From: Nocardiopsis sp. FR4
GTDB taxonomy: Bacteria; Actinomycetota; Actinomycetes; Streptosporangiales; Streptosporangiaceae
NCBI RefSeq assembly: GCF_009830945.1
Contig: NZ_ML776455.1
Span: 210,408-274,407, forward strand
Direction: 5' to 3'
DNA length: 64,000 bases
The notes beneath the pieces are model-generated. The model searched no databases. It had not been told where the DNA came from and was given only the letters and a program-made list of their open reading frames with translations. A program made the position numbers and the translations under genes. Of the stretch, positions 4,034-15,812 are shown piece after piece (position 1 is the first letter of the stretch; each line of letters opens with the position of its first letter).

Positions 4034-6148
4034 TCACTCCGCGGCCAGCAGGCTCCCGGTCGACTCGGCGAGGGTGTCCTGGCTGGCGGGCGCGTGGGGG
4101 AGGGACCGGAACAGGGAGGGCTCCATGACCACGGCCAGGGACTGTGAGAAGGCGTAGGAGAAGTGGTTGGTGTCGTAGTACACCACGTGGTTGCCGATCA
4201 CCCCGGGGCACACGCCCTCGGTGCACAGGTAGTCGGTCATGTCCACGAAGCGGGTGTTGCCCGGTACACCCGTGAGACCCCCGTAGGGCGCGACCTCAGC
4301 CATGGAGGTGTACTGGTCCATCACGCAGTCCGCACGGTGGTTGCGGTCCAGGCACTCAGGCACCCGGAACGGGAAGCGGGGAGTGTCGCGCACGGCCACC
4401 ACGTCGATGCCCATCGCGTCGAGCTGGCGCCAGCGCTCCACGAAACCGTCGGGGACGTGCTCCTCGCCCTCACCCTTGCCGCGTGCCGTGAGCGTGGCCA
4501 GGCCGAACACCGCGTCCGGCCGAAGCTCGGCGAGTTCGTCCATGACCTGTCCGTTCCAGTCGTTGCACTCGGGGAACGCGTCCCCGTTACGCCTGTACTG
4601 GGTCTCCGTGGTGAACTGGCAGGAGTTCTTGGTGATCAGCACCAGGCGCCAGCCGTGGTGTTCGGCCAGGGCGCGCAGGCCGTGGACCCAGTGGCGCACG
4701 TGGGAACTGCCGACCATGGCGATCGTGTAGTCGGAGTCGGTGTCACCGAACTCGCAGCTCACCAGTTCGGTGCTGGAGGAGGACGCGATGCAGCCGCGGG
4801 TCCGGTCCACGGTGTCCTGGATGACGGTGCTGGTGTCGGGGTGGACGGGCAGCACCGGCAGGGTGTCCGCCAGGGCGGGGTCCAGGTGCACGGCCGCGCC
4901 TGGGTAGGCGGCCGGGTTCGCGCTCAGCTCCAGGCGCAGCCGCCGCTCGTGTTCGATGGAGCCGCTCCACAGACCTGCGGCGACGAGTACCGGGACGACG
5001 AAGACCACGCCTGCGGCCAGGGACCAGATCGGGGTGCTGAAACGGGTGGTCGCCCGGGCGAGGCCGCCGTCGATGATCCAGCTGGTGAGCAGGGCCGCGG
5101 CGAAGGAGACCCCCAGGACCAGGAAGCCCCCGGCCAGCGTCGGGCGCTCGCTGTCGGTGACCTCCAGGTGGAAGACCAGCACCGGCCAGTGCCACAGGAA
5201 GAGCGGGAACGCGTGACCGCCCAGCCAGGTGAGCGGGCGCCAGCCCAGCAGCCGGTTCGCCGACCATCCGTCGGCTCCGTTCGCGCCCCCGACGATGACC
5301 AGCGCGGCGGCCAGGGTCGGCCACAGGGACGCGTAGCCGGGGTAGGGCAGCGCGTCGCCGATGACGACGCCGCAGGCGACCAGGGCGGTGAGCCCGAGCC
5401 ACCCCGCTGCCAGTCGCAGCCAACGCGGCGGTCGCACGCGGTGGATGACCAGTGCCAGGACACCGCCCAGGGCCAGCTCCCACAGGCGCGCGCCGGCGTC
5501 GAAGTAGGCCCACACGGGCTCGTGCGCGGTGATCCACAGCGAGTACCCGAAGGACACCGCGAGGACCGCGGCCACGGCGGCCAGGGCGGCGCGGCGGACG
5601 CTGGCTCCCAGACGAACCGCGACCAGTCCGGCCAGCGTGACGAGGAGCGGCCAGAGCAGGTAGAACTGCCCCTGGACGGCCAGGGACCAGAAGTGCTGGA
5701 CGGGGCTGGCGGCGTTGTTCTGCGCCAGGTAGTCCACGGAGTCGCCGGCCAGGTGCCAGTTGAGGTGGTACAGCGCCGCCGCCCGCACCTCGGCGATGAC
5801 GTCGGTCCACCGGGAGCGGGGCAGGAGGAGGTGGGCGCCGACCAGCACGGCGCCGAGCACGACCGCGCCCGCCGGGAACAGCCGTCTGACGAGCTTGCTC
5901 CAGAAGGCGCCGAGGGCGATCCGCCCGTCGCGTTCCATCGCCCTGACCAGGGAACCGGTGATGAGGAAGCCGGTGAGCAGCAGGAAGACGTCCACACCGC
6001 CGGAGACCGTGCCGAACCAGATGTGGTACACGGCGATCAGCAGGGCGGCGACGGCGCGCAGTCCCTCGATGTCCGGGCGACGGCGGCCACGGACGGGCGG
6101 ACTCACGTCGATCACGTCGGTTGCGCGGCCGAGGGCGGAAGAGAACAC
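4034..6148 (-). CDS. OafA/YrhL-type membrane O-acyltransferase with SGNH domain
   Basis: Predicted to transfer acyl (often acetyl) groups from the cytoplasm to an extracellular glycan. At 704 residues it has the family layout: an acyltransferase-3 domain (about 20-400) with roughly ten membrane segments, then an extracytoplasmic SGNH esterase-like domain (about 450-690). RRPDIEGLRAVAALLIAVYH gives the typical first helix with its His. The SGNH block I is GSSH near 495, where many members have GDSH, and DTNHFS gives the terminal Asp/His. The start is GTG at 6148, with AAGG about 8-11 bases upstream. Adjacent Stealth genes and galE suggest a surface polysaccharide or teichoic-acid-like substrate. 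Confidence 0.88.
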   Translation of the reverse strand: MFSSALGRATDVIDVSPPVRGRRRPDIEGLRAVAALLIAVYHIWFGTVSGGVDVFLLLTGFLITGSLVRAMERDGRIALGAFWSKLVRRLFPAGAVVLGAVLVGAHLLLPRSRWTDVIAEVRAAALYHLNWHLAGDSVDYLAQNNAASPVQHFWSLAVQGQFYLLWPLLVTLAGLVAVRLGASVRRAALAAVAAVLAVSFGYSLWITAHEPVWAYFDAGARLWELALGGVLALVIHRVRPPRWLRLAAGWLGLTALVACGVVIGDALPYPGYASLWPTLAAALVIVGGANGADGWSANRLLGWRPLTWLGGHAFPLFLWHWPVLVFHLEVTDSERPTLAGGFLVLGVSFAAALLTSWIIDGGLARATTRFSTPIWSLAAGVVFVVPVLVAAGLWSGSIEHERRLRLELSANPAAYPGAAVHLDPALADTLPVLPVHPDTSTVIQDTVDRTRGCIASSSSTELVSCEFGDTDSDYTIAMVGSSHVRHWVHGLRALAEHHGWRLVLITKNSCQFTTETQYRRNGDAFPECNDWNGQVMDELAELRPDAVFGLATLTARGKGEGEEHVPDGFVERWRQLDAMGIDVVAVRDTPRFPFRVPECLDRNHRADCVMDQYTSMAEVAPYGGLTGVPGNTRFVDMTDYLCTEGVCPGVIGNHVVYYDTNHFSYAFSQSLAVVMEPSLFRSLPHAPASQDTLAESTGSLLAAE

Positions 6149-6629
6149 AGATCAGCCTTGGGCTCGGGGTGAGAGGAGGGCAGGGCAGCCGGTGTGACGG
6201 CTCGTACTCGTCGGGGCCCGAAGGGATGGAAGGCGCCCGGGAAGACCCTGCCGGTCCAGTATCGGCGTGTCCGGTGAGTGCCTGGTCAGGAGTGCGGAGC
6301 CTGTTGCCGAGCCGAGATGGAATCTGTGTGGATATGTGCCCTGACATGGGCAGATGTGTGCACTGGATCACGCTGGGGGTGGCGGCGGGTGGTCGCGCTG
6401 TTGCCTGACGGGAGTCGGTCGGCGTGGCTCTGTGGTTGGAGGGGCCGGCGAGCGCCTGACAGCCGACACCCGGGTGGTGGACGCCGGGGGCCCGGTGTCG
6501 ATGGTGCTGGACGGCGAACCCGTACTCCTCGGAGTCTCCGAGGAGAGGGGAAAGACCCGTCGGAGACGTTCTCGTGGTGACCGCTGAATGAGAAGGTGGC
6601 GACGTCCCCCAGAGGACGCCGCCACTGAC
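6149..6629. other. Intergenic region containing a gene relic
   Basis: This 481-base stretch separates the acyltransferase start from the 3' end of the first Stealth gene. From about 6420 to 6591 it holds a decayed phosphodiester glycosidase tail, annotated separately. The left part, 6149-6420, presumably holds the promoter of the minus-strand acyltransferase. No other coding frame looks genuine. Confidence 0.6.
6420..6591 (+). pseudogene. Relic of a phosphodiester glycosidase (NAGPA domain) C-terminus
   Basis: The plus strand reads GERLTADTRVVDAGG and then SVMVLDGEPVLLGV-like sequence, matching two separate parts of the intact glycosidase at 14244-15812 (GERLRVDTRVVDSGG and SVSMVLDGEPVLLGV). 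About 110 residues present between those parts in the intact gene are absent. Bases 6493-6532 are identical to 15715-15754. A frameshift near 6555 must then be corrected to recover a tail reading PVGDVLVVTAE with its stop at 6589-6591. Deletion plus frameshift make this a dead fragment, probably of a second family member. Confidence 0.75.
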
Positions 6630-8336
6630 TCAGGGCTTCTCCGCCGGTGAGGGGAAGGGGAAGTAGTGGTTGAGGAAGTCGCTCATGCGACGGTGCACCT
6701 CGTCACGGCTCTCCTCCGGGACGTCCACTTCGTTCAGGCAGAAGAAGGCGTAGTGGCGCCTCTGGCTGATGTCCCCCAGCAGACGGTCCGCGTCCTCGCG
6801 GCTGACGTTGACGTAGCGGTAGCTGTACTTGCCCGGAATGCCGAGCCCCGTCATGAGGGCGTGGTTGTAGTGCATCGGCGAGGTCACCGCGATGTCGGTG
6901 GGAGCCCGGAAGCGGGAGCGCGCGGTGCGGGCGAACTCCTCGGGGAACAGCTCCTCCAGTTCAAGGAGCACCGAGCGGCGCTGGGGGAGCGGTGTGTGCA
7001 GGAAGTTGTTCGTCGTGAACTTGCCGTGCACCCCCTCCAGGAGTTTGCGGACGTTCTTGCTCGCGGAGTTGGTGGCCGTCTCGTCCGCGCGGGGGGAACC
7101 GAGCCCGATCTTCAGGGGTGAGACGGGGACCTTGATGATGCCGTTGCCGTGGAAGAAGTGCTGGGGGGTGACGGGGCGGCCGAAGAACACGTCGTCGTTG
7201 AGGTAGAGGTAGTGCTCGGACAGGCCCGGGATGTGGTGCAGGCGGGTCTCGATCGCGTGGGAGTTGAACACCGGCAGGGCGTCCTCGGGGAAGATCTCGC
7301 GGTGGTCCACCACACGTACGCGGTCCTGGGAGGTGTCCAGCCAGGACGGGGTCTGCCCGTCGGTGACGATGTAGACGTTGCGCACGAACGGCGCGTACAT
7401 CTCCAGGGACCGCAACGAGTACTTCAACTCGTCATGACTCGTGTACCGGGAGGAGTTCGTTTCCTTGTCCAGGATCTGGGCGGCCTCGCCCTTGTAGCGG
7501 GCGCGCTTCTCCCGGAGGGCGGGCTCCTCGCCGTCCACCCAGGTGTAGACGACATCGATCGGGAAGGTGACGTCGTGGGTCGTGGGGACGGTGAAGCCCT
7601 GGAAGGTGGGGAAGTCCCGGCCGCGGACCTGGATGGTAGCCGGTTTCTGCTCGCTGGAGGGCAGAACGTCGGAGACGAGGTTGCGTCTGGGAGCGACCAG
7701 TGAGTCCCTGAAGACCTCCTCGGAGGCCTGGGGTTGAACCCATGCGAGAGCCTCCTGGCCAGCGGGGGAGTCGAGGAGCTTCGCGCCGTCCCGCCAGAAC
7801 TCCACGTCGCAGCCGAGTTCGGGGGTGCCGAGGAGTTGTCCCTCGCCACCGATCCGGATCTCACCGATCCGCAGTACCTCGGCTTCGGCCAGTACCGGGT
7901 TCAGTCCGTTGTCCGCGCAGACCATGGTGTGCATGAACTTGGTGCTGTTGCGCGGGCGGGAGATGTACACGGCGCTTCTGCCCTGCCGTTTGAGCAGGGA
8001 GTCCAGGAAGGCGCGCTGCTCACTCTGGTGGACACCGACGGTGTGCCGGAAGGCGGTCGGCGAGGGAACGAGGAAGTAGGAGATCCCGGCGGCCTCCAGG
8101 GCGTCGGTGACATAGCCGAGATTGTCTGCCGCCGCGTCCTGGGCGGTGAAGTTGTCCACCACCCTGCCGGGCAGGATCTGGTCGTCGACGGTCACCATGC
8201 GCAGAGAGGTGTCCGAGTTGAGGAGGGCTCGCCGGTTCGCCGCCGAGCGCTGGCGCCAGAGGAGTTCTGCGACGTGTCGCTTCTTGTCCTGAAGGGTCTG
8301 GGAGCGGAAGCGGTTCACGCGGGATCGCAGACTCAT
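6630..8336 (-). CDS. Stealth-family sugar-phosphate transferase (A)
   Basis: A 568-residue Stealth protein, a family of capsule or teichoic-acid-type hexose-1-phosphate transferases. The unconserved N-terminal half (1-250) is followed by the four Stealth regions: CR1 DVVYTWVDGEEP near 257, CR2 DELKYSLRSLEMYAPFVRNV near 297, CR3 HAIETRLHHIPGLSEHYLYL with NDDVFFG near 360-390, and CR4 with RFRAPTDIA near 480. The ATG at 8336 is chosen because AGAGGTG lies about 9 bases upstream; the frame is open further to 8411. It is divergent from Stealth gene B. Bases 7117-7451 are identical, in inverted orientation, to 9758-10092 in that gene. Confidence 0.9.
   Translation of the reverse strand: MSLRSRVNRFRSQTLQDKKRHVAELLWRQRSAANRRALLNSDTSLRMVTVDDQILPGRVVDNFTAQDAAADNLGYVTDALEAAGISYFLVPSPTAFRHTVGVHQSEQRAFLDSLLKRQGRSAVYISRPRNSTKFMHTMVCADNGLNPVLAEAEVLRIGEIRIGGEGQLLGTPELGCDVEFWRDGAKLLDSPAGQEALAWVQPQASEEVFRDSLVAPRRNLVSDVLPSSEQKPATIQVRGRDFPTFQGFTVPTTHDVTFPIDVVYTWVDGEEPALREKRARYKGEAAQILDKETNSSRYTSHDELKYSLRSLEMYAPFVRNVYIVTDGQTPSWLDTSQDRVRVVDHREIFPEDALPVFNSHAIETRLHHIPGLSEHYLYLNDDVFFGRPVTPQHFFHGNGIIKVPVSPLKIGLGSPRADETATNSASKNVRKLLEGVHGKFTTNNFLHTPLPQRRSVLLELEELFPEEFARTARSRFRAPTDIAVTSPMHYNHALMTGLGIPGKYSYRYVNVSREDADRLLGDISQRRHYAFFCLNEVDVPEESRDEVHRRMSDFLNHYFPFPSPAEKP
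7117..7451. repeat. 335-bp perfect inverted repeat, left arm
   Basis: Line-by-line comparison shows this segment to be the exact reverse complement of 9758-10092. It encodes Stealth CR2 and CR3 in gene A. Sequence on either side diverges at once at the DNA level although the proteins remain homologous, which points to recent gene conversion and not simply to strong selection. Confidence 0.9.
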
Positions 8337-8902
8337 GCTTGGGGCACCTCTCTGGAAGTACTTCGGGGACGACGGTGACCCGGCCGATCGAGACACGGGT
8401 GCGCGAGCCATGCGGAGAGAAGGGTTGACGTCGCTCAGGTCCCCGGGAAAGACTCCGGTCCCGCATGCCGGTACAGGTCGGCTGTAGGACGTCCGAAGCG
8501 CAGTTTACTGCATATTCCCCTGCGCTTCGGGCGTGATTAAGGTCGCCGCCAGGCCCGGTTCGGTGTGGCGGGTGCTGTCTCTGCAGCGGCCCCGAGGGTC
8601 GTCCTCTCAGCGGCCGGGGTTCCGTGGATGCGGTGGTGCCGAGAGCCGAGGACGCCCGGGGTGCTTCGAGGGTTACACGGGATTCCATATCGTTGTTCTT
8701 CTGATATGAGATGGAATCATTGTTCTTGTCACACATGTGCTCTTGGTCTGTTTCATCGAGTACTGTGACTCTTTGCGGTCGAATGCGTATACGGGACTGC
8801 GTCGTGAGCTCCGGTCGCCCGGCATCCCGGGAATTCACTCCACGCCCATGCCCCGGAGAGGTCGACCGCGGCACCTCTTGCGACTGAGGACGGTAGTCAG
8901 CG
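8337..8902. promoter_or_regulatory. Divergent Stealth promoter region with AT-rich patch
   Basis: This 566-base gap between the two divergent Stealth starts has no convincing gene. Bases 8681-8800 are far more AT-rich than the surroundings. They contain an imperfect inverted repeat: gattccat at 8681-8688 pairs with atggaatc at 8711-8718, and inner atatc (8687-8691) pairs with gatat (8703-8707). Two copies of a ttgttctt motif lie inside and just after it. Both Stealth promoters are expected here; the repeat could be an operator or a transcript hairpin. Confidence 0.5.
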
Positions 8903-10597
8903 ATGATCCATGTGCGGAGGCTCGTGTCACGTCTACGGATTAGGCGGAGACTCGCAGAACGCCTTCGGTTGAGGGCCAATGCCAGGTGTGCCGCCTCCAT
9001 CGCCGAATCGACGCCCGGAGTGTCCCCCGTCACCTGGCGCGGTGAGTCGCTGTGCGGGCGGCGCGTGGACGGTTTCACCGCCAAGGACGCCGCGGAGTCC
9101 AACCTCCGCCTCGTGACCGGAGTCCTGGAGGCAGGCGGTATCGACTACTTCCTGGTCCCGGGCAAGAACAGGACGGGCCACTGCGTCGGTGTGGCGCGTG
9201 GCGACCGCGATCGGTTCCTCGCTCTGGTCGCGGAGCGTCACGGTTCCGGCCCCCTTCTGGTGGGTGTGCCCAAGGGAGGCGGCAGGATGACCCAGATCTC
9301 CTTCGCCTCGGGGCGGATTCCGCGCTCTGACGTTCTGCGTTTCTGCGAGCTGCGGCTGGGCGCCCGGGGACAGGTACTCGGGGGCTACGAACTCGGCTGC
9401 GACGTGGAGTTCTGGCGCGACGGTTCGGAACTGGTGGGAGAGGGGGGGAACTCCTTCCTGAAACGGCTCCGGATTCAGGACGGAGAAGAGGTGCTGAGGG
9501 GGGCCCTGGTGGCACCCCGGCACAACCGCGTCGCTGACATGCTCCCCCAGGACATGCGGAAACCGGCGTGGGCGGAGGTCGGAGCACGGCAGATCCCGAC
9601 CTTCGAGGTCTTCACCGCGACCACCCCCGAGGACGTCACCTTCCCGATCGATGTCGTCTACACCTGGGTGGACGGCCAGGAACCCGCTCTGCGGGAGAAG
9701 CGCGCCCGCTATCTGCCCGAGGAGAAACGGGACGTCGCCCCGTGGGAGTTCGGTGAGTCCCGGTACACGAGTCATGACGAGTTGAAGTACTCGTTGCGGT
9801 CCCTGGAGATGTACGCGCCGTTCGTGCGCAACGTCTACATCGTCACCGACGGGCAGACCCCGTCCTGGCTGGACACCTCCCAGGACCGCGTACGTGTGGT
9901 GGACCACCGCGAGATCTTCCCCGAGGACGCCCTGCCGGTGTTCAACTCCCACGCGATCGAGACCCGCCTGCACCACATCCCGGGCCTGTCCGAGCACTAC
10001 CTCTACCTCAACGACGACGTGTTCTTCGGCCGCCCCGTCACCCCCCAGCACTTCTTCCACGGCAACGGCATCATCAAGGTCCCCGTCTCACCGTTCAAGA
10101 TCTCCCTGGGCTCAGGTGCTCCTGGGGCCACCGCTCCCAACGCGGCGGGGGGCAACGTCCGCGCGTTGCTCCACAGGAGCCGGGGGAGCTTCGTCACTCA
10201 GCGCTTCCTTCACACTCCGCATCCGCAGCGGAAATCGGTGCTCAGCGAGATCGAGCGGGAGTTCTCCGCTGACTTCGCCCGTACGACGCGCTCCCGCTTC
10301 CGGTCGGCCAGCGACATCGCCCCCGTCTCCATGGCCCACCACTACGCCATGATCACCGGTCGGGGGGTGAGTGGTAAGTACCGTTACCGCTACCTCGACA
10401 TAGCGGGGGAGAAGGCGGAGGGGCAGTTCCGCGAACTGGAACGCGACAGGTCCTACGACCTGTTCTGTGTCAACGACGTCGACTCCGACAACCGACAGAG
10501 GCGGAGAATGCGGGAGTTCCTGGAGGGCTACTTCCCCTTTGCCGCCTCCTGGGAGGGAGCACACCGCTTCGGACAACGGTCCGACCTGGCGGCGTGA
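8903..10597 (+). CDS. Stealth-family sugar-phosphate transferase (B)
   Basis: A 564-residue paralogue of gene A. It has a basic N-terminus (residues 3-25, Arg-rich), a variable N-terminal half, and Stealth CR1 DVVYTWVDGQEP near 250. CR2 and CR3 are identical in sequence to gene A, and CR4 (RFRSASDIAPVSMAHHY) is near 475. ATG 8903 is the first start, with a modest purine stretch upstream. Expected role: transfer of a sugar phosphate onto a surface polymer. The DNA of 9758-10092 is an exact inverted copy of 7117-7451. Downstream lie a teichoic-acid-type polymerase relic and galE, consistent with a cell-wall glycopolymer locus. Confidence 0.9.
   Translation: MIHVRRLVSRLRIRRRLAERLRLRANARCAASIAESTPGVSPVTWRGESLCGRRVDGFTAKDAAESNLRLVTGVLEAGGIDYFLVPGKNRTGHCVGVARGDRDRFLALVAERHGSGPLLVGVPKGGGRMTQISFASGRIPRSDVLRFCELRLGARGQVLGGYELGCDVEFWRDGSELVGEGGNSFLKRLRIQDGEEVLRGALVAPRHNRVADMLPQDMRKPAWAEVGARQIPTFEVFTATTPEDVTFPIDVVYTWVDGQEPALREKRARYLPEEKRDVAPWEFGESRYTSHDELKYSLRSLEMYAPFVRNVYIVTDGQTPSWLDTSQDRVRVVDHREIFPEDALPVFNSHAIETRLHHIPGLSEHYLYLNDDVFFGRPVTPQHFFHGNGIIKVPVSPFKISLGSGAPGATAPNAAGGNVRALLHRSRGSFVTQRFLHTPHPQRKSVLSEIEREFSADFARTTRSRFRSASDIAPVSMAHHYAMITGRGVSGKYRYRYLDIAGEKAEGQFRELERDRSYDLFCVNDVDSDNRQRRRMREFLEGYFPFAASWEGAHRFGQRSDLAA
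9758..10092. repeat. 335-bp perfect inverted repeat, right arm
   Basis: Exact reverse complement of 7117-7451; the arms are 2,306 bases apart. Crossing-over between the arms would invert the whole interval and exchange the N-terminal halves of the two Stealth genes in frame. Confidence 0.9.
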
Positions 10598-10640: not shown

Positions 10641-10997
10641 CCGGACCCCTACGTCCTCCCCGAACGGGACCCGTGCGGTGGGACGGACATCCTCGTCACG
10701 GACCACTCGTCGCTGATGTTCGACTTCGCCAACACCGGCCGTCCGATGCTGTTCTTCACCTACGATCTCGAGGACTACCGGGACAACCTCCGCGGGTTCT
10801 GCTCCGACTCCGGGGAGACGGCCCCCGGCCCGCTGCTGCGCACATCGGACGAGGCCATCGAGTCCATCCGCGGGATCGACGGGGTCCGGGCGTCGTACGC
10901 TGAGCGCTACCGGGCGTTCGTGGACCAGTTCTGCCCCCTGGACGACGGCAAGGCCGCGTCCCGGGTCGTCGAGAGGGTCTTCGGCGAGCTCCTCTGA
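10641..10997 (+). pseudogene. C-terminal relic of a CDP-glycerol glycerophosphotransferase (TagF-like)
   Basis: The frame ending at 10997 reads TDILVTDHSSLMFDFANTG, then RPMLFFTYDLEDYRDNLRGF, and ends with an FCPLDDGKAASRVVERVF-type tail. That is the last 100 or so residues of TagB/TagF-type poly(glycerophosphate) polymerases, normally 380-plus residues or fused to glycosyltransferase domains. Nothing upstream of about 10640 matches the family; it runs straight into the stop of Stealth gene B at 10597. The polymerase body has been lost, probably when the Stealth gene arrived or recombined. The gap 10998-11067 holds a weak hairpin (arms 11019-11025 and 11036-11042). Confidence 0.75.
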
Positions 10998-11067
10998 GCC
11001 GGACGGGTCCGGTGGGACGGGCCGCTCCGCGCGGGGCGGCCCCACGAGACGTAAGGAGGCAAGGGCT

Positions 11068-12078
11068 GTGCGGATCCTGCTGACCGGAGGGGCCGGGTAC
11101 ATCGGTTCCCACACCGCGGTCGAGTTGGCCGGACGGGGCCATCAGGTGGTCGTCCTCGACAACCTGGTGAACAGCAGCGCCGAGGCCGTGCGCCGGGTCG
11201 AGAAGATCACGGGGACCCAGATCCCGTTCGTCGTCGGCGACTGCACCGACAGCGACGTCGTCGAGAGGGTCCTCGCCGAGCACGGCGTCGACGCCGTCGT
11301 GCACTTCGCCGGGCTCAAGGCGGTCGGCGAGTCCGTGAGCCAGCCGCTGCGCTACTACCGCAACAACCTGGACGCCCTGCTCACCCTGGCCGAGGCGATG
11401 GACCGGGCGGGCGTGCGCGACCTGGTGTTCAGCTCCTCGGCCACGGTCTACGGGGACCCGGAGAACGTGCCGATCCCCGAGGGCAGCGCCCTGCGGGTGA
11501 CCAACCCCTACGGTGCGACCAAGCTGTTCGGCGAGCGGATCCTGGAGGACCTGGCCGCCGCCTCGTCCGACTGGCGGATCACCGTGCTGCGGTACTTCAA
11601 CCCGGTGGGAGCCCACCCCAGCGGGCTGATCGGGGAGGACCCCAACGACATCCCCAACAACCTCTTCCCCTACATCTCCAAGGTCGCGGCGGGCCGCCTG
11701 CCCGAGCTCACGGTCTTCGGGGACGACTACGGCACCCCGGACGGGACCGGTGTGCGGGACTACCTGCACGTGGTGGACCTGGCCAGGGGCCACGTCGCCG
11801 CGCTCGACCACCTGGCCGACCAGCGGGGGTTCCGGGCGTTCAACCTGGGCACCGGCCGGGGGACCTCCGTCCTGGAGGCGATCCGCGCCTTCGAGGAGGC
11901 GTGCGGCCGCCCGATCCCCTTCCGGGTGGGGCCGCGCCGCGACGGCGACATCGCGACCTGTTTCGCCGACCCGGAACTGGCCAACCGGGAACTGGGCTGG
12001 CGCGCCGAGCACACGGTCGCCGAGGCGTGCGCCGACGCCTGGCGCTGGCAGTCGGCCAACCCCGACGGCTACCGCTGA
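11068..12078 (+). CDS. galE: UDP-glucose 4-epimerase
   Basis: Interconverts UDP-glucose and UDP-galactose with bound NAD, supplying galactosyl donors. The 336 residues match the family. The Rossmann motif GGAGYIGS is near residues 7-14, the catalytic Ser lies in SSSATVYG near 121-128, and the Tyr/Lys pair is in NPYGATK near 146-152. The GTG start at 11068 follows a strong GTAAGGAGG site. It is the last intact gene of the surface-carbohydrate region and is followed by a hairpin terminator. Its neighbours suggest it feeds wall-polymer synthesis; a Leloir-pathway role is also possible. Confidence 0.93.
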   Translation: MRILLTGGAGYIGSHTAVELAGRGHQVVVLDNLVNSSAEAVRRVEKITGTQIPFVVGDCTDSDVVERVLAEHGVDAVVHFAGLKAVGESVSQPLRYYRNNLDALLTLAEAMDRAGVRDLVFSSSATVYGDPENVPIPEGSALRVTNPYGATKLFGERILEDLAAASSDWRITVLRYFNPVGAHPSGLIGEDPNDIPNNLFPYISKVAAGRLPELTVFGDDYGTPDGTGVRDYLHVVDLARGHVAALDHLADQRGFRAFNLGTGRGTSVLEAIRAFEEACGRPIPFRVGPRRDGDIATCFADPELANRELGWRAEHTVAEACADAWRWQSANPDGYR

Positions 12079-14243: not shown

Positions 14244-15812
14244 GTGCCCCGCTCACACGGAAGGCTCGCCGCCTGGCTGCTCGCGCTGTCCCTCGCCGCC
14301 GTCGCCTGTACGGCTCCGGCCGCGCCGGAGGTTCTCCCGGCCTCCGCCGCCGTGGCCCGGGAGGTCTCCGCCCTCCCCGAGGACTGGTCGGTGCGGGAGG
14401 TCGAGCCGGGCTTCCTGCTCTACGAGGGCGAGGTCGTTCGCGGAGAGGATCCCGCCTGGTCGGTGTCGGTGACCGCGGGGCAGGACTGGCTGGGCTCGCG
14501 AGCCGAGGCGGAGGAGGTCACTGCCAAGCTCGCTGGTCTGGGGTGGGCGGCGGAGGTGGTGGAGATCGCCTGGCCGGAGGCCTTCGTCCAGGCGGGGCTG
14601 GCGCTGGGGTGGAAGGTGGTGTTGCGGGAGCGGTATGCGACCCGGGCCCGGGCCGAGGCGCGCGCCGCCGAGCTCGGCGACGGGGGCTGGCGCGCGTCGG
14701 TGGAGTGGTCGGGCGCCGAGCCCTATGGCGGGTACTCCAGGACCCGGGTGGTGGCGGCCGTCCTGGACCCGGCGGAGTTTCGCGGAAGCGTGGAGGCCAC
14801 CTTCGGGGAGCGGATCGACGCTGCGAGCACGGTCGCGGAGATGGCTCGTGAGGGGGGCGCCCTGTTCGCGGTGAACGGGGGCTACTTCGTGATGGAGGAG
14901 GCCGACGGCGTGCCGGGGACCCCGGCCGGGATCGGTGTCTACGGCGGGCGGCTGGAGAGCGAGGCCGTGGAGGGCCGGGCGGCGGTGGTCCTGGAGGGCG
15001 ACGGGTTGTCGCCCTCGTTCGTGGAGCTGTCCACCGAGGTCACCGTCTCGGTGGACGGGCGGGTGCGTGAGGCGGAGGGGGTCAACCGGGTGCCCGGGGT
15101 GCGGCGCAACTGTGTGGACCCCCGGCGGCCGACCCGGTACCCGTTGCATGACGTGACCTGCCGCCTGGACTCGGAGCTGGTGGTGTTCACGGACGCCTTC
15201 CGCGGTTCCACCCCCGAGACCGGTGGGGTTGAGGCGGTGGCGGACGCGGCGGGTGTGATCACCTCGGTGGGGGCCCCGGGCGCCGAGGTCCCGGCCGGGG
15301 GGCACGTCGTGCAGGGTGTGGGAGGGGCGGCCGCGTGGCTGGAGGAGAGCGCCGAGGTCGGCGAGCGCCTGAGGGTTGACACCCGGGTGGTGGACTCCGG
15401 GGGCGGGGAGCTCGCCCTGGGCGAGGGCACGAGCGTGGTCAACGCGGGTCCGCGGTTGGTGAGCGGTGGCCTGGTGGGTATCGATGCGGAGGTCAACGGG
15501 CTGATCCACCCCGACGATCCCCGTTTCGGGTACGCGTGGGCGTTGCGGGGCAATCCGCGGATGGCGATGGGGGTGGACGGCGCGGGTCGTTTGTTGTTGG
15601 TGGGTGCCTCGGGTCGGGCGCCGGGGGAGAGCGACGGGTTCGGTCTGGAGGCGCTGGCCGGGCTGATGCGGGACCTGGGCGCGGTGGAGGCGGTGGCGTT
15701 GGACGGCGGGGGTTCGGTGTCGATGGTGCTGGACGGCGAACCCGTACTCCTCGGCGTGTCCGCCCGGGGCGAGCGGTCGGTCGGGGACGCCGTCCTCGTG
15801 CGCGCCGGGTGA
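14244..15812 (+). CDS. Phosphodiester glycosidase (NAGPA domain) lipoprotein
   Basis: Predicted extracellular, membrane-anchored hydrolase of the N-acetylglucosamine-1-phosphodiester alpha-N-acetylglucosaminidase family, 522 residues. An N-terminal signal ends in a lipobox, LAAVAC, with Cys 22. Residues about 70-155 look like two SPOR-like peptidoglycan-binding repeats (AEEVTAKLAGLGWAAEVV and ARAEARAAELGDGGWRASVE). The NAGPA domain fills about 165-520, with FAVNGGYF near 210 and VEAVALDGGGSVSMVLDG near 488. GTG 14244 follows GTAGGGAGG. Wall glycopolymers with sugar-phosphate linkages, such as those made by Stealth enzymes, are plausible substrates (inference). Confidence 0.85.
   Translation: MPRSHGRLAAWLLALSLAAVACTAPAAPEVLPASAAVAREVSALPEDWSVREVEPGFLLYEGEVVRGEDPAWSVSVTAGQDWLGSRAEAEEVTAKLAGLGWAAEVVEIAWPEAFVQAGLALGWKVVLRERYATRARAEARAAELGDGGWRASVEWSGAEPYGGYSRTRVVAAVLDPAEFRGSVEATFGERIDAASTVAEMAREGGALFAVNGGYFVMEEADGVPGTPAGIGVYGGRLESEAVEGRAAVVLEGDGLSPSFVELSTEVTVSVDGRVREAEGVNRVPGVRRNCVDPRRPTRYPLHDVTCRLDSELVVFTDAFRGSTPETGGVEAVADAAGVITSVGAPGAEVPAGGHVVQGVGGAAAWLEESAEVGERLRVDTRVVDSGGGELALGEGTSVVNAGPRLVSGGLVGIDAEVNGLIHPDDPRFGYAWALRGNPRMAMGVDGAGRLLLVGASGRAPGESDGFGLEALAGLMRDLGAVEAVALDGGGSVSMVLDGEPVLLGVSARGERSVGDAVLVRAG

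Follow-up and report, generated by a model that had tools for sequence, protein, structure and literature searches.

Whether a perfect inverted repeat inside two divergent genes is the working part of an inversion switch or the trace of a different process is the question raised by a pair of Stealth genes, here called A and B, of Nocardiopsis sp. FR4. The pair lies in the 64,000-nucleotide stretch of DNA that was analysed (the window), C5:210408-274407 of a draft genome of 6.1 Mb in 73 contigs. An earlier interpretation made from the letters of the window alone (the sequence-only reading) had favored a switch, with very recent gene conversion as the fallback. The evidence presented here indicates that the repeat is very probably the trace of a recent gene conversion, limited to the CR2 domain, between two old adjacent Stealth paralogues. 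The features concerned are listed below, numbered from the first base of the window.

6630-8336, minus strand: Stealth gene A, 568 amino acids, CR1-CR4; its N- and C-terminal parts match gene 1 of the Streptomyces pairs described below
8903-10597, plus strand: Stealth gene B, 564 amino acids, CR1-CR4
7117-7451, minus strand: arm 1 of the perfect inverted repeat, the CR2 of gene A
9758-10092, plus strand: arm 2 of the perfect inverted repeat, the CR2 of gene B
8337-8902: divergent intergenic region between A and B, 566 bp, presumed to carry both promoters

The two genes point outward from the 566 bp that separate them. All four Stealth Pfam models (CR1, CR2, CR3 and CR4) exceeded their cut-offs in both A and B, and an NCBIfam search of the two at E 0.001 returned no match. 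The start of gene A at 8336 was chosen, the open reading frame remaining open to an earlier ATG at 8411, and a sigma-70 scan returned a single weak site on the minus strand (8903-8930). The genome contains three Stealth genes, of which the third (C29) is 79% identical to the arm over the arm length.

Base-by-base comparison confirmed the repeat as first described: bases 7117-7451 are the exact reverse complement of 9758-10092 over 335 bp, with no exact extension at either end. The arms enclose 2306 nucleotides, and a repeat search extended the match outward to 356 nucleotides at 98% identity (7096-7451 / 9758-10113). The flanks had been said to diverge at once, which holds on the inner side of the arms but not on the outer side, where about 21 further bases are highly identical. 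The arms had likewise been assigned to CR2 and CR3, of which only CR2 was retained. In gene A, Pfam places CR2 at residues 297-401 and CR3 at residues 447-491, and the arm covers residues 296-406; the arm is almost exactly CR2, and CR3 and CR4 lie outside it. The next similar patch, 147 nucleotides at 82% (7484-7630 / 9576-9722), falls in the CR1 region and is possibly an older, partly eroded conversion. A further A/B repeat patch comprises 117 nucleotides at 74%.

Stealth enzymes are sugar-1-phosphate transferases, and this activity is predicted for A and B by homology to CpsY and GNPTAB. Gene A aligned to CpsY of Mycobacterium tuberculosis (PDB 8j2n) over residues 258-567 (E 7e-75). In CpsY, the CR2 residues E305, N322 and D324 contact substrate or metal, the CR3 residue R419 is essential, and residues 201-520 suffice for full activity (PMC10668966). 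Read from the alignment, the counterparts in A of the three CR2 residues are E363, N380 and D382, all inside the arm, and the position matching R419 falls outside it. Conversion of CR2 would not disturb the chemistry and would preserve the differing parts, and should thus be tolerable. In their CR1-CR4 content and in the CpsY CR2 residues matched in the arm, A and B resemble CpsY and GNPTAB; unlike these enzymes, they form an adjacent pair with a common CR2.

Arm identity and co-directional pairs in Streptomyces

None of the 111 arm codons differed between A and B in the codon alignment, versus 78 of 204 same-residue codons outside the arm, where 443 codons could be aligned at 58% nucleotide identity. 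The arm of A was 70-80% identical in nucleotides to seven other Stealth genes, with 20/83 to 38/80 same-residue codons differing. The identity of the arms therefore exceeds plain conservation of the family. The probability of finding no difference in the arm was about 1e-23 at the A/B codon rate outside the arm, about 5e-14 at the lowest arm rate between genes (20/83), and about 6e-7 at the lowest rate within a pair (10/82, in L229). The window locus has the form expected of gene conversion, a tract with identity far above that of its flanks and with sharp borders.

Related loci were sought in 60 genomes, 36 of them others of the same genus as the window, and among the matches listed no second intact Stealth gene adjoined the first, the genome of the window aside. 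In a wider locus search, the best 80 of 274 loci included three Streptomyces (L077, L078 and L079) with an adjacent co-directional pair in which gene 1 was closest to A. Of 392 Streptomyces genomes surveyed, 45 matched A at an E value no higher than 1e-140; the loci examined for 40 of these comprised 30 adjacent pairs and 10 single genes, one of which (L262) lies at a contig edge. Together with L078 and L079 this gave a set of 32 adjacent Streptomyces pairs, in each of which gene 1 corresponds to A. Every one of these pairs is co-directional. Since genes arranged head to tail are unable to invert, homogenisation of CR2 within such pairs did not come about by inversion.

Such homogenisation was found in two of the 32 pairs. 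The head-to-tail pair of Streptomyces pseudogriseolus (L077) contains an exact 243-bp tract in CR2 (9165-9407 and 10898-11140), and an exact 204-bp tract in CR2 is common to both genes of L251. In L077, L251 and the window alike, the tract is bounded by a divergent linker before CR2 and a divergent segment after it. The longest identical run in the remaining 30 pairs was 17 codons or fewer, as read from codon alignments, which were used in place of exact-match values because overlapping stop-to-stop frames had inflated several of the latter. Of 22 further co-directional adjacent loci, 14 have exact matches of no more than 18-38 bp, and eight with overlapping stop-to-stop frames were uninformative (L123, L127, L139, L143, L147, L149, L153 and L156). 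Conversion among distant Stealth genes in the same genome was considered and rejected, as 14 comparisons gave a longest identical run of 10 codons and no sign of it. The short runs in the 30 pairs and in these 14 comparisons show that a long tract is not the default of the family; across the 32 pairs and the 14 distant comparisons, a long tract was seen solely in adjacent genes.

In the two pairs compared in this way, L077 and L251, the arms of paralogues were more alike than those of orthologues, and the reverse was true outside the tract. Arm identity was 97.6% within L077 and 97.3% within L251 versus 95.2% and 94.0% between orthologues, and identity of the C-terminal parts was 65.5% and 66.7% within the genomes versus 91.7% and 92.4% between orthologues. 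Each of the two genomes thus has a CR2 version of its own, present in both genes of the pair, indicating that conversion continued after these species split. At L077 8187-11659 and L251 5573-8658, the N-terminal module was homogenised as well, with 89% and 78% identity within the pair. Gene 1 of L251 (7276-9020, minus strand) has an apparent frame disruption; its open frame spans 461 residues and homology continues upstream.

The tract in the window is exact, its borders fall at the limits of CR2, and two other species, with co-directional pairs, show the same process. The abrupt tract and the independently homogenised CR2 of the two Streptomyces pairs support very recent gene conversion, the fallback of the sequence-only reading. 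The window case, which has independent parallels, is a real and clean instance of gene conversion among neighbouring paralogues and is ordinary in kind. A striking perfect inverted repeat is explained by an ordinary process, which leaves little ground for expecting a switch.

The course of the exchange can be proposed as follows. CR2, which binds metal and sugar nucleotide, is the stretch in which the paralogues have remained most similar, so that strand exchange would start there, with the heterologous linker ahead of CR2 and the divergent segment behind it as its limits. The CR2 of one gene would have replaced that of the other non-reciprocally, probably through ordinary homologous recombination. 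A and B may keep separate roles through their unconverted N- and C-terminal parts, and may help to make a phosphodiester-linked wall polymer.

The identical, sharply bordered tract in otherwise diverged paralogues is like known cases of gene conversion and concerted evolution, as is the excess of paralogue over orthologue identity in the arms of L077 and L251. Unlike those cases, the tract in the window coincides with one conserved domain and the genes are divergent. The listed literature on gene conversion between adjacent paralogues is mostly eukaryotic, and a limited literature search found no account of gene conversion in Stealth pairs. The recurring pattern in adjacent Stealth pairs is an occasional homogenisation of the CR2 core, with N- and C-terminal parts that remain distinct. 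The unconverted parts are the likely site of a substrate or partner difference between the two enzymes, and CR2 should be treated separately in Stealth gene trees.

Ancestry of A and B and the direction of exchange

The ancestry of each gene was read from comparisons with the 32 Streptomyces pairs. The N-terminal part of A was closer to gene 1 in 31 of 32 pairs (mean 49.4% versus 37.4% to gene 2), its CR1 and linker in 32/32, and its C-terminal part also in 32/32 (mean 62.7% versus 41.8%). Consistent with these values, a quick tree grouped the N-terminal part of A with gene 1 of L078 and L079 (support 86), and the C-terminal part fell in a set of four rows (support 97) whose nearest members, among the rows listed, were the gene 1 proteins of L077, L078 and L079. 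Had the number of inversions been odd, the N- and C-terminal parts of A would match different Streptomyces genes; both match gene 1. Gene A thus shows no net half-swap and keeps the ancestral combination of N- and C-terminal parts found in gene 1.

The placement of B was less clear. Its 13-column linker was closer to gene 2 in 32/32 pairs, its N-terminal part was slightly closer to gene 1 in 30/32 and its C-terminal part in 32/32, and the trees put B on a long unplaced branch. The linker hinted that B might be orthologous to gene 2 of Streptomyces, a possibility that the other two parts did not support.

A scan for half-swaps flagged 14 of 182 proteins in which the N- and C-terminal parts favor different reference genes by margins above 3 points, against a baseline in which the median of non-reference proteins already stood at +2.5 (N) and -0.8 (C). 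The outliers were gene 2 of L077 (+12.1/-4.1) and the partial L262 protein (+11.3/-6.2); gene 2 of L251 (+11.1/-1.1) resembles them but fell below the flagging rule. Gene 2 of L077, with a gene-1-like N-terminal part and a gene-2-like C-terminal part, is a natural chimera.

These comparisons bear on the idea that CR2, or a whole gene, was copied lately and that just CR2 is still identical. Such a duplication would account for the sharp end of identity on both sides, but the tract is flanked on both sides by old in-frame homologous coding sequence (the 58% identity noted above), and A belongs to an old lineage common to Streptomyces gene 1. Moreover, in-register replacement of CR2 within a diverged homologue is not expected of a duplication, and amounts to gene conversion under another name. 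A recent duplication is extremely unlikely.

Perfect inverted repeats that exceed the read length are known to mislead assemblers. An artefact, in which slightly different arms were merged into one consensus or a segment was misjoined, would suit a draft of 73 contigs, and L262 indeed begins at a contig edge inside such a gene. The arms are nevertheless flanked by different sequence, both reading frames cross both junctions, and near-identity within old pairs also occurs in two other genomes. An assembly artefact as the source of the repeat is accordingly very unlikely.

The donor of the converted tract was sought in the arm itself. The arm was closer to gene-1 arms in 29/32 comparisons and its nearest row in the arm tree was a gene 1, which would suit A as donor. 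Outside the arm, 112 diagnostic columns gave 67 gene-1 and 15 gene-2 states for A, and 38 gene-1 and 21 gene-2 states for B. In its diagnostic states the arm is distinct from the remainder of A (Fisher p 0.035) and compatible with the remainder of B (p 0.54). The diagnostic columns thus failed to bear out A as donor.

Several points weigh against the account of gene conversion given here. The donor signals disagree, the 18 diagnostic columns of the arm comprising 7 gene-1 and 6 gene-2 states. Conversion is not constant, as a long tract occurs in just 2 of 32 Streptomyces pairs, and those two, L077 and L251, are close relatives (88-89% in these genes) whose shared earlier events are not mutually independent. 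The perfection of the repeat could be exaggerated by an assembler consensus merging two slightly different arms.

The question of an inversion switch

The sequence-only reading had proposed that a 2.3-kb segment could be flipped by recombination of the two arms, so that the genes would trade N-terminal parts and two alternative enzyme pairs and variable surface polymers would result. The geometry on which it rested was upheld: the repeat is perfect, the arms are oppositely oriented in outward-pointing genes, and a computed inversion yields two open chimeras of 574 and 558 amino acids with their N-terminal parts exchanged in frame. Each chimera would combine the N-terminal part and CR1 from one enzyme with the CR3-CR4 of its partner.

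A known system shows that such a repeat can recombine. In pneumococcal spnIII, recombination uses inverted repeats of 333, 85 and 15 bp; without CreX it was reduced at the 333-bp repeat and absent at the smallest, a recA mutant was no different, and recombination persisted without the known recombinases (PMC6620402). The 333-bp case indicates that a repeat of the size found in the window can flip and that a missing recombinase is not decisive. As in spnIII/hsdS of Streptococcus pneumoniae, the inverted repeats lie inside homologous coding genes and permit an exchange of parts (in-frame products in both orientations, by computation in the window). In spnIII, several orientations were measured in populations and CreX serves the smallest repeat (PMC6620402). 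The window, by contrast, has one known orientation, no nearby recombinase and a gene A in the ancestral combination. The chimeric gene 2 of L077 suggests that proteins of this kind can persist.

The remaining evidence did not favor a switch. Both halves of A are gene-1-like (31/32 and 32/32), with no net swap. PF00239 (Resolvase) and PF00589 (Phage_integrase) had no match in the window, versus 2 and 23 matches genome-wide, the nearest on the contig lying at C5:105750-106271, about 111 kb from the arm; a linked recombinase is, on the spnIII precedent, not strictly required. No relative was seen with the swapped form of the pair. CR2 was homogenised in the same way in pairs where inversion is impossible, and the one other divergent pair found, from G815, lacks a long tract. 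That pair (L263 3409-9754, in a Streptomyces-group genome) has 56% DNA identity between its genes and a longest identical run of 10 codons.

A switch at this locus is thus unlikely. Equally improbable is its fuller form, in which CR2 arms kept perfect by conversion would support repeated homologous inversion, re-pairing the N-terminal domain and CR1 with the other CR3-CR4 to make two wall polymers. In that form, CR2 would act as an exchange joint built into the pair, giving conversion chimeras in Streptomyces and reversible inversion here. A programmed switch is unsupported. Occasional inversion at the window locus is possible, as is an even number of inversions since the ancestral linkage or a rare inversion in culture; inversion at a useful frequency would make the locus a variation device inside a glycopolymer enzyme.

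The variable slot before galE

The A/B pair lies in a locus that has itself changed content. Three further features define its surroundings.

4034-6148, minus strand: acyltransferase-3/SGNH gene, the left neighbour inside the slot
10682-10997, plus strand: remaining 3′ end of a PF04464 (CDP-glycerol glycerophosphotransferase) gene, bounding the replaced slot on the right
11068-12078, plus strand: galE-like NAD-dependent epimerase gene, the conserved right flank

In the relatives G002, G005 and G018, as in the window, the slot has ROK, SDR and enoyl-CoA hydratase-like genes on its left and galE on its right. A full-length PF04464-type gene stands directly before galE in G002 (1185 amino acids), G005 and G003, and the window remnant of about 105 codons is 74-79% identical to it over the last 105 residues. 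The homologue immediately preceding galE in G018 is more distant (47%), and a 77% homologue lies about 6 kb further. DNA similarity of the window to the loci of relatives begins at 10682-10686. Conserved flanks together with the full-length gene in relatives indicate that the slot is variable and that the polymerase gene of the window is truncated. Within a wall-polymer region, the PF04464 remnant flags a cargo slot whose content was replaced; the A/B pair and the acyltransferase gene fill this slot, the older polymerase gene having been reduced to its 3′ end.

The left side of the slot contains a degraded piece of NAGPA (phosphodiester glycosidase) at 6443-6540. It matches two segments of the intact gene at 14244-15812, namely 15356-15404 and 15700-15762, at 88-92% identity. 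NAGPA and the Stealth-type GNPTAB act sequentially in the animal lysosomal pathway.

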